Assembly (NCBI RefSeq): GCF_000147695.2 | Contig: NC_015958.1 | Span: forward strand, 164,501 to 228,500 | DNA length: 64,000 nucleotides | Direction: 5' to 3' | Source: Thermoanaerobacter wiegelii Rt8.B1 | GTDB taxonomy: Bacteria > Bacillota > Thermoanaerobacteria > Thermoanaerobacterales > Thermoanaerobacteraceae | In this document: piece by piece, positions 2,849-22,416 of the stretch | Layout: each line of letters starts with the position of its first letter | How positions within the stretch are numbered: the first letter of the stretch is position 1 | Program-made: the position numbers and the translations under genes | The notes under the pieces: model-generated | Told to the model about the DNA's origin: nothing | Seen by the model: only the letters and a program-made list of their open reading frames with translations | Database searches by the model: none

Positions 2849-4099
2849 GTGATAAAAACGAAATTTATTGTTGAAAAAAGTCCACCCCTTAAAGGAAGTG
2901 TAAAAATAAGTGGAGCTAAAAATTCTGTATTACCTATAATTGCCGCTTCTTTATTATCATCAGGAGAAATAGTGCTAGACGACATACCTACTTTAGAAGA
3001 TGTTAATGTCATGATAGAGTTAATTAAGCATTTTGGTGCTATATGTGACTTTGAGAATGAGAAATTAAAAGTAAAAGTAGATATTAAAGATATAGAAGCC
3101 CCCTATGATTTAGTAAAAAAAATGAGAGCATCGTTTTTGGTGATGGGACCTATACTTGCTAGGCTTGGGCATGCTAAAATTTCTATGCCAGGTGGGTGTG
3201 CTATTGGTTCTCGCCCAATAGATTTGCATTTGAAAGGATTTCAAACTTTGGGAGCAGATATTACTATAGGACATGGTTATGTAGAAGCACGAGCTAAAAA
3301 ATTGACAGGCAAAAAAATTTATTTAGATTTTCCAAGCGTTGGAGCTACAGAAAACATCATGATGGCGGCAGTTTTTGCAGAAGGAGTTACTATAATAGAA
3401 AATGCTGCGGAAGAGCCGGAAATTGTTGACCTTGCCAATTTTCTCAACAAGATGGGAGCGAATATTAAGGGTGCTGGTACAGATACAATAAGAATTGAAG
3501 GAGTAAAAGAGCTAAAAGGGGCTGAGCATACTGTCATACCAGATAGAATTGAAGCGGGGACCTTTATGGTAGCAGCTGCAATGACTGGAGGAAATGTTCT
3601 TATAGAAAATGTCATAGTGGATCACGTCAGGTCTATAATTGCGAAATTAACAGAATGCGGAATTAAGATAACAGAAGAACCTAAAGGACTGCGAGTCAAA
3701 GGAATTAAAAATTATAAAGCGGTGGACATAAAAACTCTTCCTTATCCAGGCTTTCCTACAGATATGCAAGCTCAAATGATGGCTATGATGACAGTGGCAA
3801 AAGGGACAAGCGTTATAATAGAAACAGTTTTTGAAAATAGATTTATGCATGTGGATGAGCTAAAGCGTATGGGGGCAAATATAAAGATAGAAGGAAGAAG
3901 TGCTGTTGTTACAGGAGTAGAACATTTGACAGGTGCAGAAGTTAAAGCAACGGATTTAAGAGCGGGAGCAGCCTTAGTATTGGCTGGACTTATTGCAGAA
4001 GGTAAAACTGAAATAAATGATATTTATCATATTGACAGAGGTTATGTAAAAATGGAAGAAAAGTTAAAAAATCTTGGAGCAATAATATATAGGAAATAG
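2849..4099 (+). CDS. murA: UDP-N-acetylglucosamine 1-carboxyvinyltransferase
   Basis: A 416-aa enzyme that transfers enolpyruvate from PEP to UDP-GlcNAc, the first committed step of peptidoglycan synthesis. [38 protein letters not shown] (the Cys of the active-site loop), [13 protein letters not shown] and [11 protein letters not shown] are family hallmarks. The start is doubtful. The annotated GTG at 2849 overlaps the best ribosome site (AGAGGGTGAT), which would better serve an initiation codon 5-9 bases further on, where only ATA, ACG or ATT occur. The conserved fold begins soon after, so the mature protein is little affected. It follows ywmB closely; a terminator-like sequence and the structured repeat lie downstream. 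Confidence 0.96.
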
Positions 4100-4116
4100 A
4101 GGCGTCATATTGACGC
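4099..4116 (+). repeat. left flanking repeat of element copy 1 (split terminator)
   Basis: GAGGCGTCATATTGACGC matches GAAGCGTCATATTGGCGC at 4383-4400 at 16 of 18 positions. Each is itself a small hairpin. Only the right copy is followed by a T-run (4402-4407), so the right copy is the likely working murA terminator. Confidence 0.7.
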
Positions 4117-4119
4117 ATT

Positions 4120-4382
4120 CAGACTGTAGACAAACTTTCGAAAATAGGATATTTTGCATAAGGAACGACTTGTGACAAAGCGGCAACAAAACTTAACAAG
4201 ACCAAGGGTGGAGGCAGGGCCGAAGCCAAGGAAGGCGGAGGCGGGCACTAAGACAAGGATGTCGAATGTGCCCGGTACCCTGCCGGAACCCGAAGGTCGA
4301 GTTTAGTTTTGTCGCTTTGGAACATCGGAGTGACGATGCAAAATATCCTATTTTAAAAATTTTTGACTTTGTCAACAAACTG
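4120..4382 (+). repeat. terminator-associated structured repeat element, copy 1
   Basis: A 263-bp non-coding element with imperfect terminal inverted repeats (CAGACTGTAGACAAA / TTTGTCAACAAACTG). It has a perfect 18-bp internal stem (4141-4158 with 4337-4354), then a stem CAAAGCG-ACAAAAC with GTTTTGTCGCTTTG interrupted by a 3-nt bulge, then GGCAGGG with CCCTGCC, and finally GGGCAC with GTGCCC closing a loop that carries GACAAGGATGTCGAAT. The same architecture with different bases recurs at 20409-20732. It is GC-rich in the centre, unlike its surroundings. It could be a MITE-like element, a structured RNA, or both. Rfam or IS family membership cannot be checked here. Confidence 0.8.
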
Positions 4383-4408
4383 GAAGCGTCATATTGGCGC
4401 CTTTTTTG
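4383..4408 (+). terminator. murA intrinsic terminator (right flank of element copy 1)
   Basis: GCGTCATATTGGCGCC folds into a short GC stem and is followed by TTTTTT. It is a near-duplicate of 4099-4116 on the other side of the repeat element. Confidence 0.7.
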
Positions 4409-4592
4409 TATGCAAAAAATTTTTAAGAAATAGAAGGATTTTTTTATATTTTGAAGAATAATATAGTGTAGTATAAATTGTGTATAGTTTTTAAATGTAA
4501 ATGTTTAATTAGACACAAATAGAGGGGGGATGACATAAAAGGACAAAATTTGTTAAATTTTGTTCAAAATCATTTTGAATAGGAGGATTAAA

Positions 4593-6542
4593 ATGGCCAA
4601 AGCACAAGGTTCAGAAAAGAGAAAATTGTCTCATGATGCTTACGGTGGAGTGCATGGTAGTGAATATATTCCCTTTATACCGGCAGATAAAGCACTTCCA
4701 GAACTTACAGCTGTGGCAGTCATAGTTGGCAGCTTATTTGCTATACTTTTTGCTGCTGCAAATGCCTACTTAGGTTTAAAAGCTGGTATGACAATTAGTG
4801 CCGCTATCCCGGCTGCAGTATTAGCAACGGCTTTATTAAAAGGTGTTTTTAAGCGAGATAGCATATTAGAGTCAAACTTAGTGATGGCTATTGCTGCAAC
4901 AGGTGAAAGCCTGGCGGGTGGCATCATATTTACTCTTCCTGCTATTATTTTGTGGGGATTCGAGGACCAATTTACTTTAATTAGAATTGTTTTTGTCGTT
5001 TTAGTAGGTGGACTTTTAGGTGCTTTATTTGTAATTCCTTTAAGAAGATATTTGACAGTTGAAGAACATGGCAAACTTATCTATCCTGAAGGAATGGCTG
5101 CTGCTGAAGTACTTGTGACCAGCAATCAGGGTGGAACAGGCTTTATGACAGTTTTATCAGGCATGTTAGTAGGTGGAATTTACAAGCTTTTATCTGGTGG
5201 CTTTGGAATATGGTCAGAAAACCCTTCTTGGGTTATAAAGAGGTTTGAAAGTACGGAAGTAGGTGTAAATGTACTTGCTTCTTTAATGGGTGTTGGCTTT
5301 ATTGTTGGTTTGGATGTAGCACTTTACATGTTGGCTGGTAGTGTTCTTGCTTGGTTAGGGTTAATACCTCTTATAAAATTCTTTGGGGCAGGACTTACCA
5401 CCCCAGTATACCCTGCTACGGACCTTATTAAAGATATGTCTGCGGGTGCCATATGGAGTAAATATATTAGGTATATAGGTGCAGGTGGCGTTTTAGCAGG
5501 AGGTTTCATAAGTTTAATAAAAGCTCTTCCTACGATAGTAAAAGCTTTTAGAGAATCAATGGTAGGGTTAGGAATGAAAGGCAAAGATGTTAAAAGGACA
5601 GATATTGATGTTTCCTTAACGTGGGTAATATTTGGAGCGGCCTTTGTATTTTTTGTAGCATGGTTAGCACCTTCTCTTGGTGTTACTGCATTAGGAAGTT
5701 TGTTAGCAATATTGTTTGCCTTCTTCTTTGCAGTTGTATCCGCAAGAATTACAGGACTGGTAGGAGTTTCTAACAATCCTGTGTCTGGTATGACAATAGC
5801 TACATTGCTCATTGTAACATCTGCTTTGAAACTTATTGGGGTTGTTGGAAACGAAGGGATGGTAATAGCTATTACCATTGGGGGTATAGTATGTGTTGCT
5901 ACTGCTATAGCTGGAGCAAATGCACAATCTCTGAAGACTACTTTTATTATAGGTGGAACTCCCAAATATGTTGAGATATTTACCTATGTTGGTATAATAG
6001 CCGCCTCAGTATTTGCTGGATTAATTTTAATACTTTTAAATAATGCTTACGGTTTCGGCTCAAAAGATATTCCAGCACCTCAAGCTACCATCATGTCAAT
6101 GGTTGTAAAAGGCATTATGACAGGTGACTTGCCTTGGACCTTTATAATAGCAGGTGTTTTTATGGGGATAATGGCGGAGATGATGCACGTTCCTGTACTG
6201 CCATTTGCATTAGGACTTTATTTGCCTTTTGAATTAAGTGCCGCTATTGCAGTTGGTGGTATAATAAGATGGATAGTTGATCAACGTTACAGGAAAAACG
6301 AAAAATTGCAAAAAGAAAAAGTGGAAAAAGGTATTCTCATTGCCTCAGGACTAGTTGCTGGAGATGCCTTAATGGGACTTATTATTGCTGCTTTTGTGGC
6401 TTTAAAGATAAATATAGATTTTGCTTCTAATTGGATTACAAATACCTCATCGTTTGCACCGTGGTTTTCATTAATAATGTTCTTGTTAGTTGGATTATTC
6501 CTATATTTATACACTTGTAAGAATGATAAAGAAGAGGCTTAA
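4593..6542 (+). CDS. OPT-family oligopeptide (or metal-chelate) transporter
   Basis: A 649-aa membrane protein with about 15-16 hydrophobic segments spread over its whole length. Family marks include FAAANAYLGLKAGMTISAAIPAAVLA near the N-terminus, LIYPEGMAAAEVL, GVSNNPVSGMTIATLL and LPFALGLYLPFELSAAIAVGG. OPT/YSL transporters are proton-coupled carriers of peptides or metal complexes in the cytoplasmic membrane; bacterial substrates are mostly unproven. The ATG at 4593 is chosen because AGGAGG lies 7 bases before it and the hydrophilic N-terminus MAKAQGSEKRKL is typical. The gene stands alone behind an AT-rich 190-bp region; a strong hairpin follows the stop codon. Confidence 0.93.
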   Translation: MAKAQGSEKRKLSHDAYGGVHGSEYIPFIPADKALPELTAVAVIVGSLFAILFAAANAYLGLKAGMTISAAIPAAVLATALLKGVFKRDSILESNLVMAIAATGESLAGGIIFTLPAIILWGFEDQFTLIRIVFVVLVGGLLGALFVIPLRRYLTVEEHGKLIYPEGMAAAEVLVTSNQGGTGFMTVLSGMLVGGIYKLLSGGFGIWSENPSWVIKRFESTEVGVNVLASLMGVGFIVGLDVALYMLAGSVLAWLGLIPLIKFFGAGLTTPVYPATDLIKDMSAGAIWSKYIRYIGAGGVLAGGFISLIKALPTIVKAFRESMVGLGMKGKDVKRTDIDVSLTWVIFGAAFVFFVAWLAPSLGVTALGSLLAILFAFFFAVVSARITGLVGVSNNPVSGMTIATLLIVTSALKLIGVVGNEGMVIAITIGGIVCVATAIAGANAQSLKTTFIIGGTPKYVEIFTYVGIIAASVFAGLILILLNNAYGFGSKDIPAPQATIMSMVVKGIMTGDLPWTFIIAGVFMGIMAEMMHVPVLPFALGLYLPFELSAAIAVGGIIRWIVDQRYRKNEKLQKEKVEKGILIASGLVAGDALMGLIIAAFVALKINIDFASNWITNTSSFAPWFSLIMFLLVGLFLYLYTCKNDKEEA

Positions 6543-6544
6543 AA

Positions 6545-6579
6545 AATCAACACTCCCATCTAAAGTGGGAGTGTTGATT
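6545..6579. terminator. 14-bp hairpin between the OPT and PqqD-like genes
   Basis: AATCAACACTCCCA and TGGGAGTGTTGATT pair perfectly across a 7-nt loop. The plus strand lacks a T-run after the stem (GTAAAG follows), whereas the minus strand has TTTTTT. It may stabilise the OPT mRNA or terminate antisense transcription rather than be a classic plus-strand terminator. Confidence 0.55.
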
Positions 6580-6595
6580 GTAAAGGGTGGAAGAG

Positions 6596-6958
6596 ATGAA
6601 AAGCAAAGGAAAAAAGAGCGACAATTTCTTGCTTTATGTACCTCATCGTAGTGATAAGGTAGAATGGGAAAATAGGAAAGGAAAAGTAGTGTTTATATTT
6701 CATCATAACAAATTGATTGAAAAAACAGTGAGGCTTTTTGTTAAAAGGCCAAAGATCACTACTTTAGAGTTAGATGAAATAGGAAGTGCTGTATGGAATT
6801 TAATAGATGGTGAGAGGAATGTTTATGAAATAGGGCAAAAACTAAAAGAAAAATTTGGAGATGAAGTTGAGCCTCTTTATGAAAGGTTGATAATGTTTAT
6901 AAGATATCTTAACAGAAGAGGATGGATATATTTTTCAAGGAGTGGACATTCTAAATAA
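6596..6958 (+). CDS. PqqD-family protein
   Basis: A 120-aa soluble protein. The central part KITTLELDEIGSAVWNLIDGERNVYEIGQKLKEKFGDEVEPLYERLIMFIRYLNRRGWI matches the PqqD fold: a D-x-I/G...W-x-L-x-D/G pattern followed by a helix-rich segment. In this family, PqqD and relatives are peptide chaperones that deliver a precursor peptide to a radical SAM enzyme. No radical SAM gene or precursor peptide is visible nearby, so this is an orphan whose partner, if any, is elsewhere. The ATG at 6596 is preferred over GTG 6587 because the GGGTGG ribosome site overlaps the latter. Confidence 0.75.
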   Translation: MKSKGKKSDNFLLYVPHRSDKVEWENRKGKVVFIFHHNKLIEKTVRLFVKRPKITTLELDEIGSAVWNLIDGERNVYEIGQKLKEKFGDEVEPLYERLIMFIRYLNRRGWIYFSRSGHSK

Positions 6959-7086
6959 AAAGATAGTATGTTGTTTGCTTAAAAATTTTTATGATTTCTA
7001 TTTTTTGTTGAAGGATTTTTAGTATTTTTGTAGAATTAATATATTGAAAAGGTTTTGGCAAAAGATTGATAAAGGGGAGATAGAAT

Positions 7087-8211
7087 ATGAAAATTGGTGT
7101 TCCCAAAGAGATAAAAACTGCAGAAGCTCGTGTGGCTATTACTCCTGCGGGAGTGGAAGCTTTTATAAAAAATGGACATGAAGTATATATTGAAAAAAGT
7201 GCAGGAATGGGAAGTGGCATAACTGATGAAGAATATGCAAAGGCTGGCGCTAAAATACTTTCTACTGCAAAAGAAGTATTTGATGTAGCAGATATGATAA
7301 TGAAAGTAAAAGAACCGCAGCCAAGCGAATATGACTATTTCAAAGAAGAACAGGTTCTTTTTACTTATCTTCATTTAGCTCCTGATAAACAACAAACAGA
7401 AGCTTTATTGAGGAAAAAAGTGGTAGGGATTGCTTATGAGACAGTACAACTAGATAATGGAGCTCTTCCTCTTTTGACTCCCATGAGTGAAGTAGCTGGA
7501 AGGATGTCGGTGACAATAGGAGCTTATCTTCTCACCAACATAAATGAAGGAAGAGGAATTGTAATGGGGGGAGTCCCAGGAGTAGAGCCAGCAGAAGTGG
7601 TAATAATAGGTGGGGGAACAGTAGGTACAAATGCAGCCAAGGTAGCTGTGGGGATGGGAGCAAGAGTTACAATATTGGATGTAAATCCTGCAAGACTTGC
7701 ATATCTTGATGACATATTTGGAGGACGAGTTACAACTTTGATGTCAAATAGTTTTAATATTGCTCAGAGTGTGAAAAAAGCGGATTTGTTAATAGGAGCA
7801 GTTTTGATACCTGGAGCAAAAGCACCAAAGCTTGTGACAGAAGAAATGGTAAAGACGATGAAGAAAGGTGCAGTAATAGTGGATGTTGCAATAGACCAAG
7901 GTGGTTGTATAGAGACATGTGATAGAACGACTTCTCACAAAGACCCGTACTTTATAAAACATGGAGTAGTACATTATTCTGTGCCTAACATTCCAGGAGC
8001 TGTTCCGAGAACCTCTACTTTTGCTTTAACTAACGTAACATTGCCTTATGCTTTAGAAATAGCAAATAAAGGATATAAGAAGGCTCTACTTGAGAATAAA
8101 GCTTTATTAAAAGGATTAAATGTTTATAAAGGAATGGTAACATACAAACCTGTTGCAGATGCTCAAGGTTTAGAGTATGTCGATCCTGTTGAAGCTTTAG
8201 ATAAAGAGTAA
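7087..8211 (+). CDS. ald: alanine dehydrogenase
   Basis: A 374-aa cytosolic enzyme that reversibly deaminates L-alanine to pyruvate and ammonia with NAD. It begins [26 protein letters not shown]. It carries the substrate-binding Lys in [11 protein letters not shown], the His of [15 protein letters not shown] and the dinucleotide-binding site [40 protein letters not shown] is characteristic of the family. Length is normal (about 370 aa). The ribosome site GGGGAGA precedes the ATG. A strong terminator follows, and a group II intron is inserted immediately after that terminator. Confidence 0.97.
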
Positions 8212-8234
8212 GATTTTCTGAATGAAAATATCTA

Positions 8235-8267
8235 CCTCTCACAAAGAAATTTTGTGGGAGGTTTTTG
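8235..8267 (+). terminator. ald intrinsic terminator
   Basis: CCTCTCACAAA (8235-8245) pairs with TTTGTGGGAGG (8251-8261) over 11 bp and is followed by TTTTTG. The intron begins two bases downstream of the T-run, at 8269. Confidence 0.92.
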
Positions 8268-8268
8268 T

Positions 8269-8926
8269 GTGCGCCCGGCATGGGCGATAGCTAGGCGGTG
8301 AAAGTCCGCTGTGGGCTTGGTAGTGGGAACCACTAGCCGAGAGCAAGGGTGTCCATCGTGAGGTGGAATCTGAAGGAAGCTTAAGGCAAAATCTCGGTCT
8401 GATGAACAAGAACCAGATAAGAGGCTGAATTGGGATGGATGAGTTTGCACATCAAAACAAAGTCCAACACTACCCGAATCCCATACAGTAAATCTGGCAG
8501 ATATATGAGATGAAAGCAATCGTTCTTACCCGGGGAGGTCTCAAGGATAAGTCATGGAAGTAAAATATGAAGTGACAACCCATACAGTGATGTATGGCTG
8601 AACCTTGAGAAGTCAGCAGAGGTCATAGTACTTATCTAGACATGAATAGATAAGGAAGGACTGAACATTAGGAGGTTTCGGAAATCTTATGAACTCGAGA
8701 GATATGCGAAGACTGCAGACAACTCAACAAAGAGGCTATCCGTTGGATAGAGAAAGGGAATTTCAAAAGACAACGGAAGTGCATAGTATATCATCGGCGT
8801 CAAGGGATGGAAGAAATGATGTACTAAGAATTGTACATAATTCCTAATGAACCGCCGTATACCGAACGGTACGTACGGTGGTGTGAGAGGACGCTGAATA
8901 AAATAATTATTCAGCTCCTACTCGAT
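8269..8926 (+). mobile_element. group II (IIC-like) intron with degraded ORF
   Basis: The 658-nt element begins GTGCGCCCGGCATGGGC, a bacterial group II intron 5' end. Domain V is visible at about 8850-8882: ACCGCCGTA...TACC, loop GAAC, GGTA, bulge CG, TACGGTGGT. Domain VI pairs GAG-AGGA (8886-8892) and GCTGAATAA with TTATTCAGC and TCCT-A-CTC, leaving a bulged A at 8920, seven bases from the end CTCGAT. Insertion directly after the ald terminator is the known habit of class IIC introns. The RNA core looks intact, but the encoded reverse transcriptase is almost entirely missing, so it could move only with help in trans. The exact 3' end (8926) is inferred from the branch-point distance. Confidence 0.9.
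8689..8847 (+). pseudogene. remnant of intron-encoded reverse transcriptase (N-terminal leader only)
   Basis: A 52-codon frame in intron domain IV begins ATG behind GGAGG. It encodes MNSRDMRRLQTTQQRGYPLD, then a stretch ending SSASRDGRNDVL; the first part is the characteristic leader of group II intron reverse transcriptases. The RT palm, maturase and any endonuclease regions are absent. The last codons (RIVHNS and stop) probably come from beyond an internal deletion. Confidence 0.75.
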
Positions 8927-8954
8927 TGTTTACTAAAAAATCTCATGTTATAAT
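8926..8954 (+). promoter_or_regulatory. sigma-A promoter for the PEP/pyruvate-binding gene
   Basis: TTGTTT (8926-8931), a 17-bp spacer and TATAAT (8949-8954). The -35 box abuts the intron 3' end, so the intron inserted between the ald terminator and this promoter without breaking either. Confidence 0.75.
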
Positions 8955-8990
8955 TTGTGTAAAGTTAAAATGTCAATAGGCGGTGAAAAA

Positions 8991-10691
8991 ATGGCTGGGA
9001 CTTTATTATATAAAGATTATGATCCTCGCTTGAATAAAAAAAATAATGAGAGAATTTTTGGAGAAGGGCATATTGGAGGGAAAGCTTCGGGACTTTGTTT
9101 TGCAGAAGAAGTATTAGAAAAATATAACGATGTTTTTAAGCAAAGTGTAAAAATACCTGAAAGCTTTTTTATAGCTACTGATTATTATCAAATGTTTTTA
9201 AATTATAATAATTTAAATGACATAACGGAAGATACTCCTTATGAGGAAGTAGAAATGAGATTTAGAGAAGCTAAATTTCCTCCAGAATATAAAAAAGTGC
9301 TGACAGAGATTTTAAATAAAATGTATTATCCTTTAGCTGTGAGGTCTTCTTCTTTATTGGAAGATAATGTAAAATATTCTTTCGCTGGCAAGTATTATAC
9401 CACTTTTATTCCTAACAAAGGTACAGATAGAGAAAGGCTTAAACAATTAGAAAAAGCTATTAAAGAGATTTATGTAAGCGTATATGGCCCAGATGCTGTC
9501 GCATATAGGAGAAAACATGCTCCTGATCAAAAAGAATTAATGGGGGTAATTGTGCAACAACTGATAGGTTCACAAAAAGGCATGTACTTTTATCCAGAGG
9601 TTTCTGGAGTAGGCTTCTCTCGAAACTACAGACGGTGGACTGACAGAATTAAAATAGAAGATGGAGTTGTGAGATTAGTTTTTGGCTTAGGGACAAAGTG
9701 TACAGGTAGAGGATATGCGAGAATTTTTTCTCTAACTAATTTGCGCTTACGACCCGAAGGCAATAATCCTAAAGAAATTGCCAAAAATTCACAAGAAGCT
9801 TTTGATGTATTAAATTTAATCACAGGAGAAGTAGATACTTATAACATCAATGAAACACCTCAATTTTTAGCTTATCATGAAAAAATAGGTGATATTGCTC
9901 AAATATATTCAAAAAGAGAAAATGCGATTTTTGACATAAATATGGTAAATAGCAGTGATGCCTCTAATAAATATATCTTTACATTTGAAAATTTTCCCAG
10001 AAGGCATAAAGGATTTTTTAATATAATTTCTAAACTATTTAAGTATCTCGAAGAAGAGATGGAAATGGCGGTTGATATTGAATTCACTTATGACTTAAAA
10101 AAAGGCGAATTTTATCTTCTTCAAACACGACCATTGAGTTCTTACGAAAGTTTCAGAAAAGTCCACATTCCTAAGGATATTGAAAAAAAATGTGTCTTGT
10201 TGAAAGGGGATAGGATGCTTACAAATGGCATCTTGAAAAACATAAGATATATAGTATACGTAGACCATGAAGTTTATAGCCAATATAAAGATAAACATGA
10301 AATTGCGAGAATAATAGGAAGACTCAATAAAAGTATAGGAGATAGATACATTCTTGTAGGTCCGGGAAGATGGGGTTCCTCCAATCCCTATTTAGGGGTA
10401 CCTGTTATATACAACGAAATATCTAATGCCGCTATGATTGTAGAACTTGGAATAAAAAATGGCGATTTTATGCCGGAACTTTCTTATGGTACACACTTTT
10501 TTGCTGATTTAGATGTAGACAATATTTTGTATATGCCAGTTTTTGATGGATATGAAAATAACATTTTTAACGAAGAATGGTTTAAAAAAGGGGCATATAT
10601 CGACACAGGAGTAAAAATTTTTGAAGGACGGTTCGACGCCTATTTAGATGGAGATAAAATGATAGGATATGTGATAGCACAAGAAAAATAA
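8991..10691 (+). CDS. PEP/pyruvate-binding domain protein (PEP synthase-like N-terminal domain)
   Basis: A 566-aa protein. The N-terminal half carries the ATP-grasp PEP/pyruvate-binding fold of PpdK/PpsA: IGGKASGLCFAEE, YPLAVRSSSLLEDN, FAGKYYTTFIPN, the segment with VIVQQLIGSQKG and VDIEFTYDLKKGEFYLLQTRPLSS. The C-terminal part, with YILVGPGRWGSSNPYLGVPV and SYGTHFFADL, is shared by a group of uncharacterised homologues. The phosphohistidine and PEP/pyruvate catalytic domains of true PEP synthase are missing, so it is not a complete PpsA. The ATG at 8991 has AGGCGGTG upstream and is preferred over the longer frame from 8955. Its substrate is unknown. Confidence 0.85.
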   Translation: MAGTLLYKDYDPRLNKKNNERIFGEGHIGGKASGLCFAEEVLEKYNDVFKQSVKIPESFFIATDYYQMFLNYNNLNDITEDTPYEEVEMRFREAKFPPEYKKVLTEILNKMYYPLAVRSSSLLEDNVKYSFAGKYYTTFIPNKGTDRERLKQLEKAIKEIYVSVYGPDAVAYRRKHAPDQKELMGVIVQQLIGSQKGMYFYPEVSGVGFSRNYRRWTDRIKIEDGVVRLVFGLGTKCTGRGYARIFSLTNLRLRPEGNNPKEIAKNSQEAFDVLNLITGEVDTYNINETPQFLAYHEKIGDIAQIYSKRENAIFDINMVNSSDASNKYIFTFENFPRRHKGFFNIISKLFKYLEEEMEMAVDIEFTYDLKKGEFYLLQTRPLSSYESFRKVHIPKDIEKKCVLLKGDRMLTNGILKNIRYIVYVDHEVYSQYKDKHEIARIIGRLNKSIGDRYILVGPGRWGSSNPYLGVPVIYNEISNAAMIVELGIKNGDFMPELSYGTHFFADLDVDNILYMPVFDGYENNIFNEEWFKKGAYIDTGVKIFEGRFDAYLDGDKMIGYVIAQEK

Positions 10692-10849
10692 AAAAGTCGA
10701 TTTATGTATAAAAAGATATAAAAATAACAAAAAATGAGACTTAAGTCCTATTTAAAGTACCAAAATAATGTAATATAATTTAAACTGTAAGAATGATTCC
10801 CCTTTTCCCCATAAAATTTAATATATTCTGCACCCCCAACCCAATATAG
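10692..10849. other. AT-rich intergenic region after the PEP/pyruvate-binding gene
   Basis: No reading frame of note. It contains the palindrome GACTTAAGTC near 10739 and a TATAAT-like box near 10772 without a clear -35. It precedes a short terminator and the sigma-28 promoter. Confidence 0.4.
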
Positions 10850-10874
10850 GCTGCTTTAAAGCAGCTATTTTTTT
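10848..10874 (+). terminator. intrinsic terminator upstream of the surface-protein operon
   Basis: GCTGCTTTAAAGCAGC (10850-10865) is a perfect palindrome followed by TATTTTTTT. It isolates the following sigma-28-type promoter from upstream transcription. Confidence 0.8.
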
Positions 10875-10882
10875 GTTTTTGC

Positions 10883-10910
10883 TAAAGTTTAGCCTTTAAA
10901 ATGCCGATAA
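10883..10910 (+). promoter_or_regulatory. sigma-28/sigma-D (flagellar type) promoter of the surface-protein operon
   Basis: TAAAGTTT (10883-10890), 12 bases and GCCGATAA (10903-10910). The established enterobacterial FliA consensus is TAAAGTTT-N11-GCCGATAA, and the Bacillus sigma-D form is TAAA-N15-GCCGATAT. Both boxes match exactly to the former, with one extra spacer base. It lies about 80 bases before the first gene of the operon. Confidence 0.8.
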
Positions 10911-10992
10911 ATAAGGTTAAAGGAGTGTTTTGAGAATTGTTTCACATAGAACATTTTACCATTTATTCATAAATATGAGAGGAGCATGTCGA

Positions 10993-13900: not shown

Positions 13901-16290
13901 CTCAAGCTGTGGCTCCCGAAAAGTTTCATTTCCTTGTACCAGAAAGTAGCCCAATAATAACTTCTGTATATCCGAACTTTGGTACAGTAAAGGGTGGTAC
14001 TTCTATCTTGATTGAAGGAAGTGATTTTAGAAGGGGTGCAGAAGTATTTATAGGAGGCAACAAAGCTACAAACATAACTGTAAGTCCTGATGGAAAGACG
14101 ATAACTGCTACTACTCCTCCAGGAGTTCCAGGTAAAACTTATGTAACTGTTGTAAACTATGATGGTGGCAATTACACTTATGGAGTTCATGAGGGGGAAA
14201 GCGGGTTTACATACGTTGTGCCCAACAGCCAGCCTGTCATTACAAAGATAGAACCTAATAGCGGCTCTACTTATGGAGGACAAGAAGTGACCATATATGG
14301 TCAAGACTTTAGAATTTCTAAAGACGAAAATGGAAATATACTAAAAGATGAAAACGGCAATCCAATAGGCCCCGAAGTGTATTTTGGAAATGTCAAAGCG
14401 GAGAAGGTTACTTATATTGATTATGGAACTTTAAAAGTTATTACACCTCCTAACGCGCCTGGAAAAGTCAGAGTAACTGTTGTAAACTATGATGCAGGGC
14501 TTGGGTACATTGACAATGGATATACTTATATTCAATCGAAACCTCAGATTAAAGAAGTTATACCTCCAAAGTTTGATAAGGCTGGAGGAACTTATAGTAT
14601 TATCATAGGAAGTGATTTTGCAGTTCCTGTATATGATAACGACAAATTAGTAGTACCGGGTTCTTCTGTTTATATTGATGGAGCTAAAGTGCATGATGTA
14701 AAAGTTATAGACAGTACAATGATAAAATTTACTGCTCCTCCAGTGGACAAAATAGGCATGAAGGAATTAAAGGTGGTAAATCCAGATGGAGGAACTGCTG
14801 TATTTAAAATAGAGTATGTATCTCCAAGCTCACATCCTTTGATAACTTCTATAACTCCAAATAAAGGCAGTATTAATGGGGGCACTTATGTAACTATCAA
14901 AGGACAAGACTTTAGAGAAAAAGTTAAAGTGTATTTTGATGCTTATGAAGCGAAAGTAGTTGCGAATACCTCTGATACTATTACTGTAATCACTCCTGCC
15001 GCAGACCCGCAGAAAGACTTAGACCGTCTTGCGGATGTGACAGTGTTTAATGTTGATGACGGAGGAAGTTATACTTTAAAAGAAGCGTTTATGTATATCG
15101 CTACAGAGTCCAACCCAAAGATAACTTCTATTACTCCTAATACAGGGTCTACAAAAGGAGGAGAAACAGTAACCATAACAGGTAATGACTTTAGACAAGG
15201 AGCAAGGGTGTTTTTTGGAGATGCGGAAGCTTATAATGTAATTGTGAAAAGTTATAACACGATTGTCGTGACAACCCCAGGGCATGCAGAGGGAAAAGTA
15301 GATGTAATTGTGAGAAATCCCGATTATGCAAATGCTGTTTTGCCTCAAGGTTTTACCTATGTGCAAACAGTACCGGATAATCCAGTAGGCTTTTGGGCCG
15401 AATCAATAGCCGGTAACGACCATACATTATATTTACATTGGTCAGAGGCAAAAGGAGCAAAATACTATGAAATCTATGGTAAGACAGCTAATTCGGCAGA
15501 TTACAAATTCGTTGCTGCAACAGATAAATTGGAGTATTACGTGACAAATCTTTTGCCAAATACTACTTACTCCTTTGCCATGAGAGCTGTAAATGATTTG
15601 GGCCCCAGTGATTTTGTATACACTTATGCTACTACTGATACTTCTTCTAACAGCAAATATGACACTTCTGTTACAGGAGTAAAAAATGACACTACTTATG
15701 CAACAGCAAACGGCTCGCTGGTCATTACATTAGGAGATGATATTTTAAATACGACTACTTATAAAATTGATTTGACAGGCAACCAATATAAAAATATAAG
15801 CAAATGGGTTATAAACATACCATCTAAATATAAAAATAAGACTTTTACCACTATATGGGTTATAATGCCTGGATTTAATATAAAATTTACCCTTAACAGC
15901 CTCTACCTATCAGGAGATTATGACAGAATAACAATAAATAAGCTATCGGATAAGACTTATGACGAAATATCAAGAAATATGCCAAAAGGGTATAAGATAT
16001 TATCTGACATTTATGACATGACTTATGAAAAAATTGACGGCGATAAAACAAGCAGTTATCCATATTTTTACAACAAAGTGAATGTAGCATTAAATGTTGA
16101 CAAAAATAGACTTGGCAGCAGGAATATAAGCTTTTCAAAGCTCATGTATATAACGGCTTGCATGAGTAGTGTACCATGTACGGGGCTGTCAATAAGCAAT
16201 AATGGCATATCAAATATGATGGTAGATAGCGCATCGAATAATGTATTAGGTGATATATCTTATCCTGGCAGGTTAGCTGTTATTTATTGA
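10993..16290 (+). CDS. very large secreted IPT/TIG-repeat cell-surface protein
   Basis: A 1765-aa protein with a signal peptide (MKRFLSLVIAVSMILSLFPG, cleavage near AYG-AYS). Most of its length is about 12 IPT/TIG immunoglobulin-like repeats of 85-110 residues. Each has the pattern P-x-I-x-S-I-x-P-N-x-G-S/T-x-x-G-G-T-x-V-x-I-x-G-x-D/N-F and ends V-x-V-V-N-P/Y-D-G-G...F-x-Y. Near residue 1480-1570 is a fibronectin type III-like module (WAESIAGNDHTLYLHWSEAKGAKYYEIY...LPNTTYSFAMRAVND). The last 200 residues are unrecognised. There is no SLH or LPXTG anchor, so attachment probably depends on partners; the next two genes carry SLH domains. ATG 10993 is chosen for its GAGAGGAG site 8 bases upstream and signal peptide. 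Expression is probably flagellar-sigma dependent. Confidence 0.85.
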   Translation: MKRFLSLVIAVSMILSLFPGNMSKAYGAYSPNITSVASLRLDGTMASPAKGPVDQYTDIKITGSGFVTYDTNGNVVSSVSAVYIDSPIDSNKLTILSANENTIYAKVPPASKIGLSPDTPYTIIVQRSDGQSAAIFNGFTYINNPYISKVALDNFITLVKDSNGNIISRTTKSYIRMEGSYLNDIGLAQINGETASVVSQSGSVLITTIPQNINIDPTTLYTVNVTNIYRGRSNTVQTNIYAVNQDITGLSQYTVIVGDTITIYGHGFSTLGSGFKVYVGANLVNSSDVNIVSDTEMTVKVPAPKDTTLEYQNIDIVAADGSTATLVDALKIIPTPAVITIDNITPNAGSVSGGTKVIIVGQNLREDLIVKFGGVVAKSVQSITLPGLTANQRAIQVTTPPYSKSGPVDVSLVDPITGYTVTKQNGFFYLAVEDTMVVVDMNPDHGYESGNTDVTLWGFNFQRSDDPSPYTVNSDNTEITYTNTNYTYKDPATGNLVEGSRERKLYVTFGGNKAQIKSIFNPGTGQQTLNVLSPSVTLNPPGQDMPVDVVVTVETTIKDANGNVVMHYSEQSSPPTKFTYNPLPSNPQILSISPGSGSRAGGDTVIIQGFDIRPGVKVYFGDKLATVKDLTTGGDNKSVLTVISPPSTALGYVDVKVVNKDADANRGFAIYSKGYYYYTAPSISNIFTNFGSKYGGNFITITGSDFYVGQTVIDGVYMPKYPDVRIGNIQLKVISVEDKDGNIIDGKKLNIGTKIKAIVPETQVPYTVGWQDMTIQNYDGISGTVGGSVTLQNAFEIKDTQKNPTITSVDPNKGPTKGGTPIKILGSNFEKGSIVTIDGVQATVTKVLSGNTEIDATTPPGTLGKKIVQVVNPSDGGTATLVDGFEYLLIETKPQITKVVPNYGGKGTLIYIFGSDFSLKVGDSEGAKAYIGDTVLENVYVINDTTITGIIPDMRYSGLYDIKVVNPDTAQAVAPEKFHFLVPESSPIITSVYPNFGTVKGGTSILIEGSDFRRGAEVFIGGNKATNITVSPDGKTITATTPPGVPGKTYVTVVNYDGGNYTYGVHEGESGFTYVVPNSQPVITKIEPNSGSTYGGQEVTIYGQDFRISKDENGNILKDENGNPIGPEVYFGNVKAEKVTYIDYGTLKVITPPNAPGKVRVTVVNYDAGLGYIDNGYTYIQSKPQIKEVIPPKFDKAGGTYSIIIGSDFAVPVYDNDKLVVPGSSVYIDGAKVHDVKVIDSTMIKFTAPPVDKIGMKELKVVNPDGGTAVFKIEYVSPSSHPLITSITPNKGSINGGTYVTIKGQDFREKVKVYFDAYEAKVVANTSDTITVITPAADPQKDLDRLADVTVFNVDDGGSYTLKEAFMYIATESNPKITSITPNTGSTKGGETVTITGNDFRQGARVFFGDAEAYNVIVKSYNTIVVTTPGHAEGKVDVIVRNPDYANAVLPQGFTYVQTVPDNPVGFWAESIAGNDHTLYLHWSEAKGAKYYEIYGKTANSADYKFVAATDKLEYYVTNLLPNTTYSFAMRAVNDLGPSDFVYTYATTDTSSNSKYDTSVTGVKNDTTYATANGSLVITLGDDILNTTTYKIDLTGNQYKNISKWVINIPSKYKNKTFTTIWVIMPGFNIKFTLNSLYLSGDYDRITINKLSDKTYDEISRNMPKGYKILSDIYDMTYEKIDGDKTSSYPYFYNKVNVALNVDKNRLGSRNISFSKLMYITACMSSVPCTGLSISNNGISNMMVDSASNNVLGDISYPGRLAVIY

Positions 16291-16302
16291 GGAGTGAGAA
16301 GG

Positions 16303-18876
16303 TTGGAAAAGATATTTACAATTTTACTTACAATAATTCTATTTGTTTTAAGTAGTGTTTATACTTATGCTTCGGACAATCCTGTATATTACGGTACGGA
16401 CAACGTGCAAAGCATCTATTACAATATGTCCTTCAAAGATATAAAAGATAGTTTTGCTAAAAATGACATAATGAAAATGACTGCTCTTTCAGTTATTAGA
16501 GGTGGAGGAAGTCAAAAATTTTATCCTAAAAGCTATTTAAAAAGAGAAGAGGCAATAGCATATATTGTAAGACTAATGGGACTGGAAGAACAAGTACAAA
16601 AAACACCTATATCCTCCTCTACTGCAGTAGGGGGGAGTAACCCTCCTACTGCTAATTCTAATCAGACTGGGCAAAATAATGCTTCTTCTCAATCAGGTCC
16701 CAAAGTAGATTCGTGGGCACAAGGAATAATTGATGTGGCAGCGAAAAATAATCTTTTGAGGAAAGAGGATATGGCTTTGGATTTTACAGCAAATGCAACA
16801 AGAGAGGAAGTTGCTTATTGGATAGCAAAAGGATTGAATCTTGCGCCGATTTACGGAAAAGATTTACAAAAAGTTTATGCTTTTTCGGATGCTAAAAGTT
16901 TTAATACTGATTATATGCCATATATTGAAGCAGTTTTAAAAAGTGGAATAATGACAGGTTACAATGATAGTAAATTTGGACCTAAAGACAACATAACCAG
17001 AGAGCAGATGGCGTCAGTTTTGAGTAGAGCTTTTAACTTAGGGTATAATTTAATGGGCTATTCAATAATAAATGCTACAGTGCAGGATATACTTTACGAA
17101 GAGGTTGCTAGGAAAAATAGTATAAAGAAAACTTTTGTTCTTCTCAATAATAAAGGGCAAAATGAGTATATTGTGGTTCAACGAACATATTCTTCAGAAG
17201 GAATAGTTCATAATTCAGATTTTTTGACTATTAGCAATGGAGTTCCTTCTTTTTCTGATTCTATTGAAAAAGGGGATAATGTGAATTTTTATATAAGCGG
17301 TCAAAATGTGATATTTGCTGAAAAAAAACCTGTATTTCACAGTACTTTGTACGGAGAGATAAAAGACATATCAGCTTCTAACATAACACTTACATCTGAA
17401 TCAGGAGTTGAATATGTATTTTCTTATAACCCTAATACAAAAATCTATATAAATGATTATCCTGCTTCTATAAAAGATTTACGATATGGTCAAACTGTCA
17501 CAGTATACCTTAATGGTAACACGGCTTATGCAATAAATGTTGATTATGAAGATTTGGGAAGTGGGAAAATCGATACAGGCTCAAGACAAGTAACAGGAAG
17601 CATAATGGCTATAGATAAACAAGATAATGGCATAAATATTAAATTAGACAATGGACAATTTTATTCTATTGCTTATGATGTGCCTATCATAAAAGAGGGA
17701 AATACTGTGTCTTTGTCTTCAATAAGAGAGGGAGACTATGTAAATTTGTATTTTGATGACCCTTATACAAATGCACCCATCAAGGTATTAGTAGAAAATG
17801 AATATCACAAAGTCTACTATATCATAAGAGGAAATCTCGGAAGTTTATTGGCTTCCAACAATTCTATTTCAATAAACAATGTGGAAAAGTATTATCAAGG
17901 TACATGGCAAAGTGCAAATAATTTTGCTTATTATCCTTTAGATGAAGCTAAAATATATTACAATGGCTTTGAGTGCAGCAAAGAAGACCTTAAAAATTAC
18001 AAAGGAAATCAAATATATGCTACAGTTGAGAAGCACTTTGGAACAGATTCGATTACGTTTATAAACATAACCCCAACTTTTACAATGAGTTACAGTGGCA
18101 TTGCAAGTTTTGATACTCAATCGATGATTCTTACATTAAATGATGGCAGAAAAGTAACTGTAAACGACGGCACAATTATTTTAAAAGATGGAATGAAGAT
18201 ACCCTATACTTCACTTATAGGAAATAAACAAGTATATGTATCTTTTTCCCAGACGGATAGAAGCTTATATGCTAATTTCATCTCAGTAATTGATAGTGTA
18301 TATCCAGAGTATTACTATGCGAAAGGTTTTATAACCAGTGCAACATCAAATTCTATCACTATTGGTAACTTATATACAAGTTGGTGGTATCAAGCATATG
18401 GGTATTATGCTATACAAAACAATCAATGGAATATTGTAGGAGGCACAAAAACTTTCTATGTGGGAGATAAAACTTATATAGTTGATAATAGAGATAAAGA
18501 TTCAAAAGTTATTCCCTACACAGAACTTTTGGATGTAAAATATGGAAAATCTAAATACACCTCTGCCCATGTGTATGTGGTATCACAAGGAGACAATGCT
18601 ATTGCAATAAACATTATGAATTCAACGGGGCAAGAAAGAGTGTCTACTGCTGATGTTGTATCTATTGATGGTACCAATTTAACTCTAAATAATGTAAATG
18701 ATTGGAATGAATTAAATGGGGCTTGGAATCTGAATACCTCTCTTGATACAGTAGATGTATCAAAAACGGTAATAATTAAAAATGGACAGGCAGTCAATAT
18801 AAGTTCTATAAATCCGGGAGATTCACTCTATATTATAAGAAATGGCTCATCTGCTGTTATTGTAACGGTGAAGTAA
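16303..18876 (+). CDS. S-layer homology (SLH) domain surface protein
   Basis: An 857-aa secreted protein. The signal peptide EKIFTILLTIILFVLSSVYTYA is followed by three SLH-type repeats (roughly residues 35-90, 120-175 and 185-240). The third is clearest: YIEAVLKSGIMTGYNDSKFGPKDNITREQMASVLSRAF. A Ser/Asn/Gly/Gln-rich linker separates the first two. The remaining 600 residues are beta-rich repeats with motifs such as YGEIKDISASNITLTSESGVEYVF that I cannot assign. SLH domains bind pyruvylated secondary cell-wall polymer. TTG 16303 is chosen over GTG 16294 because GAGGAG overlaps the latter. It starts 12 bases after the IPT/TIG gene, so it is in the same operon. Confidence 0.85.
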   Translation: MEKIFTILLTIILFVLSSVYTYASDNPVYYGTDNVQSIYYNMSFKDIKDSFAKNDIMKMTALSVIRGGGSQKFYPKSYLKREEAIAYIVRLMGLEEQVQKTPISSSTAVGGSNPPTANSNQTGQNNASSQSGPKVDSWAQGIIDVAAKNNLLRKEDMALDFTANATREEVAYWIAKGLNLAPIYGKDLQKVYAFSDAKSFNTDYMPYIEAVLKSGIMTGYNDSKFGPKDNITREQMASVLSRAFNLGYNLMGYSIINATVQDILYEEVARKNSIKKTFVLLNNKGQNEYIVVQRTYSSEGIVHNSDFLTISNGVPSFSDSIEKGDNVNFYISGQNVIFAEKKPVFHSTLYGEIKDISASNITLTSESGVEYVFSYNPNTKIYINDYPASIKDLRYGQTVTVYLNGNTAYAINVDYEDLGSGKIDTGSRQVTGSIMAIDKQDNGINIKLDNGQFYSIAYDVPIIKEGNTVSLSSIREGDYVNLYFDDPYTNAPIKVLVENEYHKVYYIIRGNLGSLLASNNSISINNVEKYYQGTWQSANNFAYYPLDEAKIYYNGFECSKEDLKNYKGNQIYATVEKHFGTDSITFINITPTFTMSYSGIASFDTQSMILTLNDGRKVTVNDGTIILKDGMKIPYTSLIGNKQVYVSFSQTDRSLYANFISVIDSVYPEYYYAKGFITSATSNSITIGNLYTSWWYQAYGYYAIQNNQWNIVGGTKTFYVGDKTYIVDNRDKDSKVIPYTELLDVKYGKSKYTSAHVYVVSQGDNAIAINIMNSTGQERVSTADVVSIDGTNLTLNNVNDWNELNGAWNLNTSLDTVDVSKTVIIKNGQAVNISSINPGDSLYIIRNGSSAVIVTVK

Positions 18877-18898
18877 GAAAAACATTGGGGGAATTGCA

Positions 18899-20386
18899 AT
18901 GAAAAAAATTATAGGGTTAGTTATAATATTCACCCTTTTGATTCCTTTTCCTGTTCAGGTTTTTGCCAATGATGCAGGTTTTGAAGGTGGTATTGCCAAT
19001 GAGCAAGAATACAAAGAAGTTGTATTTATAACGGGACAACCTATTATATTTAGTGGTGTTCTTAAAATTAATCAATCTGTAAGAGGTGATACTACTACAA
19101 CAACATATAGGTATGACCTTGCTTCCGATTCAGGAGACAAACTCACACGTTCTCTTACTTTTGTTACCCAAGAAACAAAAAAACCTGAATACAACCAAGT
19201 GATTAGTCAGACTACTCTTAAGACATATACTGAAAACATAAAAATAGGGGGAAATACTTACACTTTAGACAGAAATAATGGATATATATACTCAGGCTCT
19301 GAAGTAAAAAGCATAAACCCTGGTGTAACCTACTATGCTGGTAACTATTCAGGCGTAAAATTATACAGGGTCAATGGCAATAAAGGGACTGTAAAAGTGA
19401 CTATAGATGACAAAACAGTAGGATTTATTCATAAATACGGAAGTGCTGATACACATCAAATAAATTATTTAATCGAAAGCACAATGGGGTCAAATGGAGA
19501 AGTAAAAAAATGGGTTGGAGAGGCTCATGTAAATGTATCTTTTACTGATAAATCCAGTATTGAATATGTGGAAAATGACCCTCAATATATAAGTTTTAGG
19601 GGTGGATATCTTTTAAGGCGAAATAGCGGTGACATGATGAATTACTCTTATAATCTCCCAAAACTAGATGATAACGGCAACGAAATAGGAAGAAACATAG
19701 GAAATGGAAGTTTGAAACTTGATGGTGTGTCATTCGAAGATAGATTGGTGGTCCCACAGGCTAAAGACATAAATGGAACATGGGGAAAAGAGGATATTAA
19801 AAAATTGATGAGCATGGAAGTATTTCCTAATGACTCAGAATACTTTGGTCCTAAACTTCCCATATTGCGCTCAGACTTTACCGTTGCAGTTGCAAAAGCA
19901 ATTGGATTAAAACCGTATGAACCGCCCAAGAGTACGCTTTATTCAGCAAGAAACAAAAGCGCTATAGAAATTTCACCTTTTATTGATATATCTACTACTG
20001 ATCCGAATTATGGATATATAAAAGCAGCCAGTGATGCAGGGCTTATCTCAGGTACTGCTCCAAATCAGTTCAGTCCTTCAAGGTCTCTTACTCGTGCTCA
20101 AGCGGCAGTGATATTTATAAGAGCTTTGGGGCTTGAGAACCTCGCTCCTTCAGGAAATTTTGATACCGGTTTTTTAGATGACTACGCTATACCATTGTGG
20201 GCAAAAAGGAGTATTTACGTGGCGCGGGAGATAGGACTTATATCAGGCGATGAATATGGAAGGTTTAACCCTGATGGCTATGTTACGCGAGAAGAAGCTG
20301 CTTCAATGATTTCGAGGATGATAAATTTTATGATGAACGACCTTACTTTTGATTATGTAATGAGGATATTAAATTATCATAATTAA
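18899..20386 (+). CDS. surface protein with C-terminal SLH domains
   Basis: A 495-aa secreted protein with a signal peptide (KKIIGLVIIFTLLIPFPVQVFA). An unrecognised beta-rich domain of about 260 residues follows, then three C-terminal SLH repeats (about residues 295-350, 355-420 and 425-485). The second is ISPFIDISTTDPNYGYIKAA...GLISGTAPNQFSPSRSLTRAQAAVIFIRALGL. It follows the previous gene by 22 bases behind GGGGGA and closes the three-gene surface operon. The opposite placement of SLH domains in this and the preceding protein (C-terminal versus N-terminal) suggests two wall anchors for one surface assembly; that is inference. The operon terminator has been duplicated around the downstream repeat. 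Confidence 0.88.
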   Translation: MKKIIGLVIIFTLLIPFPVQVFANDAGFEGGIANEQEYKEVVFITGQPIIFSGVLKINQSVRGDTTTTTYRYDLASDSGDKLTRSLTFVTQETKKPEYNQVISQTTLKTYTENIKIGGNTYTLDRNNGYIYSGSEVKSINPGVTYYAGNYSGVKLYRVNGNKGTVKVTIDDKTVGFIHKYGSADTHQINYLIESTMGSNGEVKKWVGEAHVNVSFTDKSSIEYVENDPQYISFRGGYLLRRNSGDMMNYSYNLPKLDDNGNEIGRNIGNGSLKLDGVSFEDRLVVPQAKDINGTWGKEDIKKLMSMEVFPNDSEYFGPKLPILRSDFTVAVAKAIGLKPYEPPKSTLYSARNKSAIEISPFIDISTTDPNYGYIKAASDAGLISGTAPNQFSPSRSLTRAQAAVIFIRALGLENLAPSGNFDTGFLDDYAIPLWAKRSIYVAREIGLISGDEYGRFNPDGYVTREEAASMISRMINFMMNDLTFDYVMRILNYHN

Positions 20387-20387
20387 G

Positions 20388-20407
20388 ACAAGGGAGAAGT
20401 CTATTGT
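20388..20407 (+). repeat. left flanking repeat of element copy 2 (degenerate terminator copy)
   Basis: ACAAGGGAGAAGTCTATTGT matches the intact terminator ACAAGGGAGAAATCCCTTGT at 20734-20753 in 17 of 20 positions. The left copy has lost pairing in its right arm and has no T-run. Confidence 0.7.
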
Positions 20408-20408
20408 T

Positions 20409-20732
20409 CAGACTGTAGACAAACTATTTTGTAAGATTGGCATTTTGTAAAGTAATGCAACTCGCGACAAAGCAGCCCGGCACTCAAGTAAGAAAGTTTA
20501 TAAAGCAAAAATAGAAAAACAATCATACTTACTTGAGTGCCGGGAAACTTAGCAAGTGTGATGACGGAGGCGGGGCTGGAGCCACGGATGGCGGAAGCTG
20601 CCACCTGAGACAAGGATGTCGAATGTGGTCGGAACCCCGCCGGAGTCTGAGAGCGAGCGCTAGTTTAGCCTGCTTTGTCGCTGGAGCAAACTTGCAAAAT
20701 GCCAATCAAAATTATACTTTGTCAACAAGCTC
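20409..20732 (+). repeat. terminator-associated structured repeat element, copy 2
   Basis: A 324-bp element in the same orientation as 4120-4382, with the same left end (CAGACTGTAGACAAA) and right end TTTGTCAACAAGCTC. The stems are conserved with changed bases: GATTGGCATTTTG (20435-20447) with CAAAATGCCAATC (20695-20707); GCGACAAAGCAG with CTGCTTTGTCGC; GGCGGGG with CCCCGCC; and CCAC with GTGG around the invariant GACAAGGATGTCGAAT. At the position of the 3-nt bulge in copy 1, this copy carries an extra 17-bp hairpin, CCCGGCACTCAAGTAAG with its exact complement (about 20475-20543). Paired changes on both sides of several stems indicate selection for, or generation of, secondary structure. Confidence 0.8.
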
Positions 20733-20733
20733 T

Positions 20734-20760
20734 ACAAGGGAGAAATCCCTTGTTTTTTTG
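20734..20760 (+). terminator. surface-operon intrinsic terminator (right flank of element copy 2)
   Basis: ACAAGGGAGAAATCCCTTGT forms an 8-bp stem followed by TTTTTTTG. It is the intact member of the flanking repeat pair. Confidence 0.85.
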
Positions 20761-20800
20761 TAGACAGAGATTTTTTAGTTTGTAGGGGTGATAAGAGGCT

Positions 20801-22410: not shown

Positions 22411-22416
22411 GATAGA

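Follow-up and report, generated by a model that had tools for sequence, protein, structure and literature searches.

Terminator hairpin duplication by an IS1182-type MITE family of Thermoanaerobacter that carries a TwoAYGGAY-like, putatively CsrA-binding RNA

Among the described systems closest to the elements reported here are the insertion sequences (IS) of the IS1182 family, for which the part of PMC7335449 used here gives DR lengths of 2-60 bp. In staphylococci, its members IS1272 and TnSha1 target terminators and other hairpins with no sequence consensus, according to the relevant passages of PMC4923244 and PMC5678879. As these passages describe it, IS1272 takes the place of the hairpin or deletes part of it, with no target-site duplication, and TnSha1 removes part of the hairpin (PMC4923244). 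The legend of Fig 13 in PMC5678879 also draws duplication of the hairpin (paths 3b-6b) as an alternative, the data of that study being cases of replacement. On the RNA side, the closest described class is TwoAYGGAY (RF01731), a three-way junction in which two terminal loops carry GGA; its Rfam-positive members are dispersed and multicopy in many genomes. The passages of the TwoAYGGAY literature available here do not call it mobile, and one of them already proposed it, from motif matches, as a clostridial CsrA-binding sRNA (Gardner 2015, PMC4333381). The SELEX consensus of CsrA is given as RUACARGGAUGU with the GGA in a hairpin loop (abstracted from PMC4347634), and the CsrA-binding sRNAs CsrB and RsmY/Z likewise expose GGA in hairpin loops.

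The window analysed here, a stretch of 64,000 nucleotides of Thermoanaerobacter wiegelii Rt8.B1, holds two copies of a non-autonomous IS1182-type MITE that carries a conserved RNA. Their coordinates, 4120-4382 and 20409-20732, had been proposed in a first-pass annotation made from the sequence alone and were borne out; all their features are on the plus strand. Copy 1 (263 bp), recognised by an R1 match and by blastn as a family member, lies in sense orientation downstream of murA, between two copies of the murA terminator hairpin. The left one (4099-4119) matches the right one (4383-4403) at 18 of 21 positions and stands for a target-site duplication, the relative G002 having a single hairpin there (L142); repeat scoring and T count place the T-run at the right one. 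The left terminal repeat CAGACTGTAGACAAA (4120-4134) has one mismatch to the left end of the IS1182 IS, CAGACTGTTGACAAA, and the right terminal repeat TTTGTCAACAAACTG (4368-4382) has no mismatch to that of the intact IS of G007. Between them, the TwoAYGGAY-like RNA core (R1 model, 4189-4313; sub-threshold Rfam match at 4169-4326, 32 bits) includes GGA hairpin 1, GCC-AAGGAA-GGC (4225-4236; sequence, fold and loop census), and GGA hairpin 2, GAC-AAGGAT-GTC (4252-4263), which is near the CsrA SELEX consensus.

Copy 2, a long form of 324 bp delimited by shared sequence and repeat scoring, separates the left duplicated terminator of a gene of 495 aa (20388-20408) from the right one, which has the T-run (20734-20754; 18/21 to the left one, repeat scoring and T count). 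The fold and the family alignment show an extra hairpin at 20476-20544, followed by the RNA core at 20545-20670 (core alignment and covariation), in which sequence and fold place GGA hairpin 1, GCC-ACGGAT-GGC, at 20581-20592 and GGA hairpin 2, GAC-AAGGAT-GTC, at 20609-20620. As first noticed, the end sequences and GACAAGGATGTCGAAT are common to both elements, and folds of each copy confirm that their arms diverge with pairing kept; folding energies depart strongly from those of shuffles (z = -11.3 for copy 1 and -10.0 for copy 2). Imperfect terminator copies do flank both elements, with direct repeats of 18/21 at each when rescored here. These two elements bear out the claim that the T-run survives at the right copy alone. 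Among the 25 rows listed for the family, the 8 bases past the right repeat contain at least five T in 18 rows and two to four in the other 7. Neither element contains an ORF of 80 aa or more, which fits a MITE without transposase.

These two copies belong to a large family. The covariance model of the core (R1), built from 31 sequences, finds at least 38 copies in this genome at E <= 1e-6 (best 150 of 201 candidates), and blastn with copy 1 gives at least 56 aligned pieces (best 40 of 64 candidates). Eight other genomes of the genus contain 13-91 R1 matches each, the richest being G005 (91) and G006 (86). Among named records, the exact end pattern occurs in 16 stretches, 12 from Thermoanaerobacter and 4 from one unclassified Clostridia assembly; no match was found in phages. 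The ends CAGACTGTAGACAAA and TTTGTCAACAAACTG are imperfect inverted repeats, and the core sits inside long outer arms, to which the long form adds one hairpin. A 98-bp copy, L037, consists of ends and outer arms only and has hairpin repeats on both sides. The family was aligned from 37 copies, leaving aside fragments or repeats (L025, L028, L035, L037, L050), and the core alignment A2 also leaves aside the truncated L040, L041 and L044 and three duplicate cores. Several end-like matches (L033, L034, L036, L046-L050) were rejected, no element being visible by eye. In the long form, the extra hairpin has a loop that is apparently flipped in L021 and L040 relative to L019 and L020.

The search with the left end also retrieved two IS copies of this genome, L031 and L032, which are bounded by perfect hairpin repeats (26/26 and 21/21) and whose right ends each hold a group II intron. 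The intact IS of G007 has a perfect hairpin repeat of 28 bp. Their transposase belongs to the IS1182 family (NF033551, 496.3 bits for a cut-off of 270; Pfam domains DUF772 and DDE_Tnp_1_6), and four near-full-length open copies of it are present in this genome; L194, one of two further IS copies, had no left end recognisable in the scan. The ends of the MITE match those of an IS, the transposase of the putative parent is of the IS1182 family, no transposase is encoded, and insertions are polymorphic with an IS-type target and duplication, as in IS1182-family MITEs; the elements are a real MITE family of this type with an RNA cargo. The first-pass annotation knew of no named family that fits and had taken a match to a described IS/MITE or Rfam family as evidence against its reading. 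Such a match exists in part: the ends go with an IS1182-family IS and the core is related to RF01731, which it matches at scores below the gathering cut-off. The elements share with the IS1182 family their ends, the transposase family and the palindromes or terminators used as targets, and differ from it by their conserved RNA and by the duplication of whole hairpins.

It should be stressed that the repeat flanking the MITE is the whole palindromic terminator hairpin. In well-preserved copies, the hairpin sequence proper to the site stands on both sides. When all rows are scored by one fixed rule, 25 of 33 (31 MITE and 2 IS copies) outscore all 198 mismatched-flank controls, 7 of 40 rows having been excluded beforehand because their ends could not be identified. 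The duplicated repeats of these 25 rows are 15-32 bp long, and 17 of the 25 are strong palindromes, against 3 of 250 nearby control windows. The other eight rows have no repeat above control, which counts against the best explanation; in two of them (L002, L014) the right end holds a group II intron. The alternative first considered, a structured RNA gene travelling with its own terminators, is right about the structured RNA and wrong about the terminators: these are not brought along, because it is the hairpin of each host site that is duplicated. With IS1272 the hairpin is replaced or partly deleted, whereas here it is duplicated whole, and judging from their sequences these sites are natural cases of the duplication path drawn in the legend available from PMC5678879. 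Since the variable repeats end at the feet of the palindromes, transposition may involve joining to the 5' feet of a cruciform and then repair. A transposase of the IS1182 family would act in trans to move the MITEs. A preference for sense orientation at gene ends is weak: where both neighbours lie on one strand, 17 elements read with the gene at whose end they sit and 8 against it (p = 0.11), in a table of 42 rows whose 12 convergent and 5 divergent cases were left uncounted and whose ORF calling is crude, L013 and L019 being placed by small overlapping ORFs.

Mobility of the MITE is well supported by empty sites. The flanks of 20 sites were joined with one hairpin left and compared with six genomes of the same genus. 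An unbroken junction match was found in at least one of these relatives for 19 of the 20 sites, as read by hand among the matches listed (best 40 candidates per genome); L015 had none among them, and L004 was counted on a partial match. Some of the same sites are interrupted by an insertion in other relatives. At the murA site, G002 has a single hairpin and no element, and the terminator is also occupied in G006 and G005. There the flanks are 96-98.5% identical to those of this genome and the elements only 88-89% identical to copy 1 (89% in G006; 88% in G005, where the element is inverted), which suggests that this terminator was probably hit independently in different species. Furthermore, MITE and IS use common targets: at the terminator of L038, G007 has an intact IS in place of the MITE of this genome, and at that of L031 it has a MITE in place of the IS. 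The first-pass annotation had named as support for its reading a large number of copies, relatives with an empty site and one terminator, and covariation; all three were found for the mobile non-coding element duplicating terminator hairpins that it proposed first. In G001, two MITEs lie next to each other at one terminator with a hairpin remnant between them (L149).

To judge from its sequence, the core forms a conserved RNA of TwoAYGGAY type, a three-way junction with two ANGGAN-type loops. Its structure was written by hand from the covariation, because RNAalifold alone mispaired hairpin 2. Within this genome, 12 of 32 pairs are changed on both sides, and pairing reaches 94%, against 25-44% when partners are slid. 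The covariation score is reached by none of 500 shuffles, which ignore relatedness; the further pair types are not above shuffles, 142 of 500 reaching the observed value. In the cross-genus alignment (32 matches from 24 genera, aligned to R1; 4 of the 35 sources gave no R1 match), double changes affect 31 of 32 pairs, 91.6% of cells are paired against 34-39% when slid, and the further pair types are reached by 7 of 500 shuffles, which again ignore relatedness. GGA is present in both loops of 32/32 of these matches and a C-G pair closes them in 30 and 32, an invariance that is partly selected, as the set was found and aligned with models that contain the loops. In this genome, 24 of 31 copies keep GGA in both loops. 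Loop 1 lacks it in the other seven (six TTGTGA, one ATGAAT), one of which also lacks it in loop 2. In L012, L015, L021, L024 and L045, CCTGACG or CTGACG replaces ATTGTGCCC, the 3' arm below GGA hairpin 2, and the helix is broken.

The core shares with TwoAYGGAY RNAs a covarying junction that ends in two GGA loops; the strict AYGGAY motif fits only one of the four loops in the window. The RF01731 model gives 32.0 bits for copy 1 and 19.5 bits for copy 2, for a gathering cut-off of 43, and at least seven matches in this genome, none of these over the cut-off (best 38 of 77 candidates). Among 299 genomes drawn from the phylum, 45 have a match at E <= 0.001, which passes the cut-off in 29. Loci of G152, G143 and G019 point to other carriers. 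Of the seven loci in G152, five open with CAGACTGTAGACAAA (L154-L158) and five have hairpin repeats scoring at least 14 (L153, L154, L156-L158); of the four in G143, three resemble these at the left end, two of the three with repeats scoring 11 and 13. As far as such sequences tell, the RNA is also found in IS1182-type MITEs of another family. G019 contains at least 29 TwoAYGGAY matches at E <= 0.01, and 7 of its 26 fetched loci (L063, L068, L072, L075, L096, L098, L100) have repeats of 8-19 bp at consistent distances, the shorter of which may be due to chance. Its ends differ from those of the MITE here, so that the RNA has likely changed carrier, riding there in a MITE with other ends. In the sister genus, L090 (G011) and L091 (G009) are single TwoAYGGAY-like elements, seemingly beside the same neighbour genes in opposite orientation. 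A record labelled as a Klebsiella pneumoniae plasmid (NZ_CP061968.1, 19591-19711) matches the core at 75% identity over 45% of the query.

What such an RNA could do at gene ends is suggested by its loops. Because insertion separates the left hairpin from its T-run, read-through from the host gene could take in the element, and the right hairpin copy could still terminate the transcript. The host transcript would then gain a TwoAYGGAY-type three-way-junction RNA at its 3' end, whose two ANGGAN-type loops would most likely fill both sites of a CsrA dimer. The sequence GACAAGGATGTC, present in both window copies, includes ACAAGGATGT, and this genome encodes CsrA (one match, E 2.0e-21). Across the phylum, 43 of the 45 genomes with the RNA also have CsrA, compared with 170 of the 254 without it (Fisher p = 2.3e-5); the counts by genus are 34 of 36 and 119 of 178 (p = 4.3e-4). 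This association is confounded by phylogeny and perhaps by flagella, and it takes two draws of 299 genomes as the same since their handles agree. The two RNA-bearing exceptions, G212 and G264, have no CsrA above the Pfam cut-off among matches listed to E <= 10, and G212 has nine RNA matches. Over whole elements, GGA shows no clear excess against dinucleotide shuffles (z -0.3 to 2.4 among 11 copies, ten of which have 8-10 GGA and one 6). Unlike CsrB and RsmY/Z, this RNA is borne by a transposon, in tens of copies, at gene ends. We regard it as probable that an IS1182-mobilised MITE gives host genes a 3' RNA that binds CsrA. A wider reading makes the whole TwoAYGGAY class travelling CsrA decoys, a module taken up repeatedly by unrelated mini-transposons throughout the phylum, which would link dozens of gene 3' ends in each genome to the CsrA network and possibly free the transposase mRNA from CsrA; we advance it tentatively and lean against it. 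Confidence in both is lowered by the seven of 31 copies that lack a GGA loop.

The same loss of loops would suit an ordinary IS1182 MITE with a passive interior, the structure of which is kept only as quasi-palindromic DNA for transposition. The outer arms are indeed long inverted repeats, and the core seems unneeded for mobility, since L037, which lacks it, also sits between hairpin repeats. Palindromy of the DNA, however, does not predict ANGGAN loops conserved on one strand, nor does a passive interior account for a branched core with conserved loops and covarying stems over 24 genera, or for a related core in the G019 elements with other ends, which makes this reading unlikely. If the RNA instead served the transposon, it would titrate CsrA and derepress a transposase mRNA whose ribosome-binding site is rich in GGA. 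The IS leader, AGAGGAGAGGAAAAGGAAGATG in L031/L032 and similar in L147, and the association of CsrA with the RNA among genomes would agree with this, but purine-rich leaders are common, and at E <= 1e-30 the transposase has no match in G005 and one decayed match in G006, the genomes richest in MITEs, and no match in G019 and G152; we hold such a role to be quite improbable. Finally, Rfam types TwoAYGGAY as 'Cis-reg', which would make it a cis-acting, riboswitch-like regulator. Most copies here are found at gene ends, in both orientations and between site-specific hairpin repeats, and the row 'y n n' of Weinberg 2010, in the part of PMC2864571 used here, has a second column that apparently stands for cis-regulation, so that this last role is very hard to credit.

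Hairpin targeting by IS1182 relatives is already known, and the transposon side is of a known kind; the RNA cargo and the natural duplication of hairpins look new. In open-licence papers, we found neither a link of such MITEs to CsrA or to Thermoanaerobacter terminators, nor TwoAYGGAY RNAs travelling on transposons, nor RNA cargo of MITEs. These elements suggest that an Rfam family without settled function is transposon cargo, provide sequence evidence from nature that a hairpin can be duplicated, and not only replaced, in transposition of the IS1182 type, and point to transposition as a way for a global RNA-binding regulator to acquire many new sites at gene ends.

Other elements of the window deserve mention. 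An ISNCY-family IS (about 20790-22412) adjoins MITE copy 2, with its transposase (21081-22292) on the minus strand. This transposase was rejected as mobiliser of the MITE (382 bits for the ISNCY model, cut-off 325; ends different by eye). As to other RNA classes, the only Rfam matches at gathering level in the window are pieces of a group II intron (8352-8926). This intron (8270-8924), which has no evident intron-encoded protein, follows a terminator-like hairpin 3' of an ORF of 374 aa (7087-8211), and introns like it interrupt the right ends of the IS L031 and L032 and of the MITEs L002 and L014.
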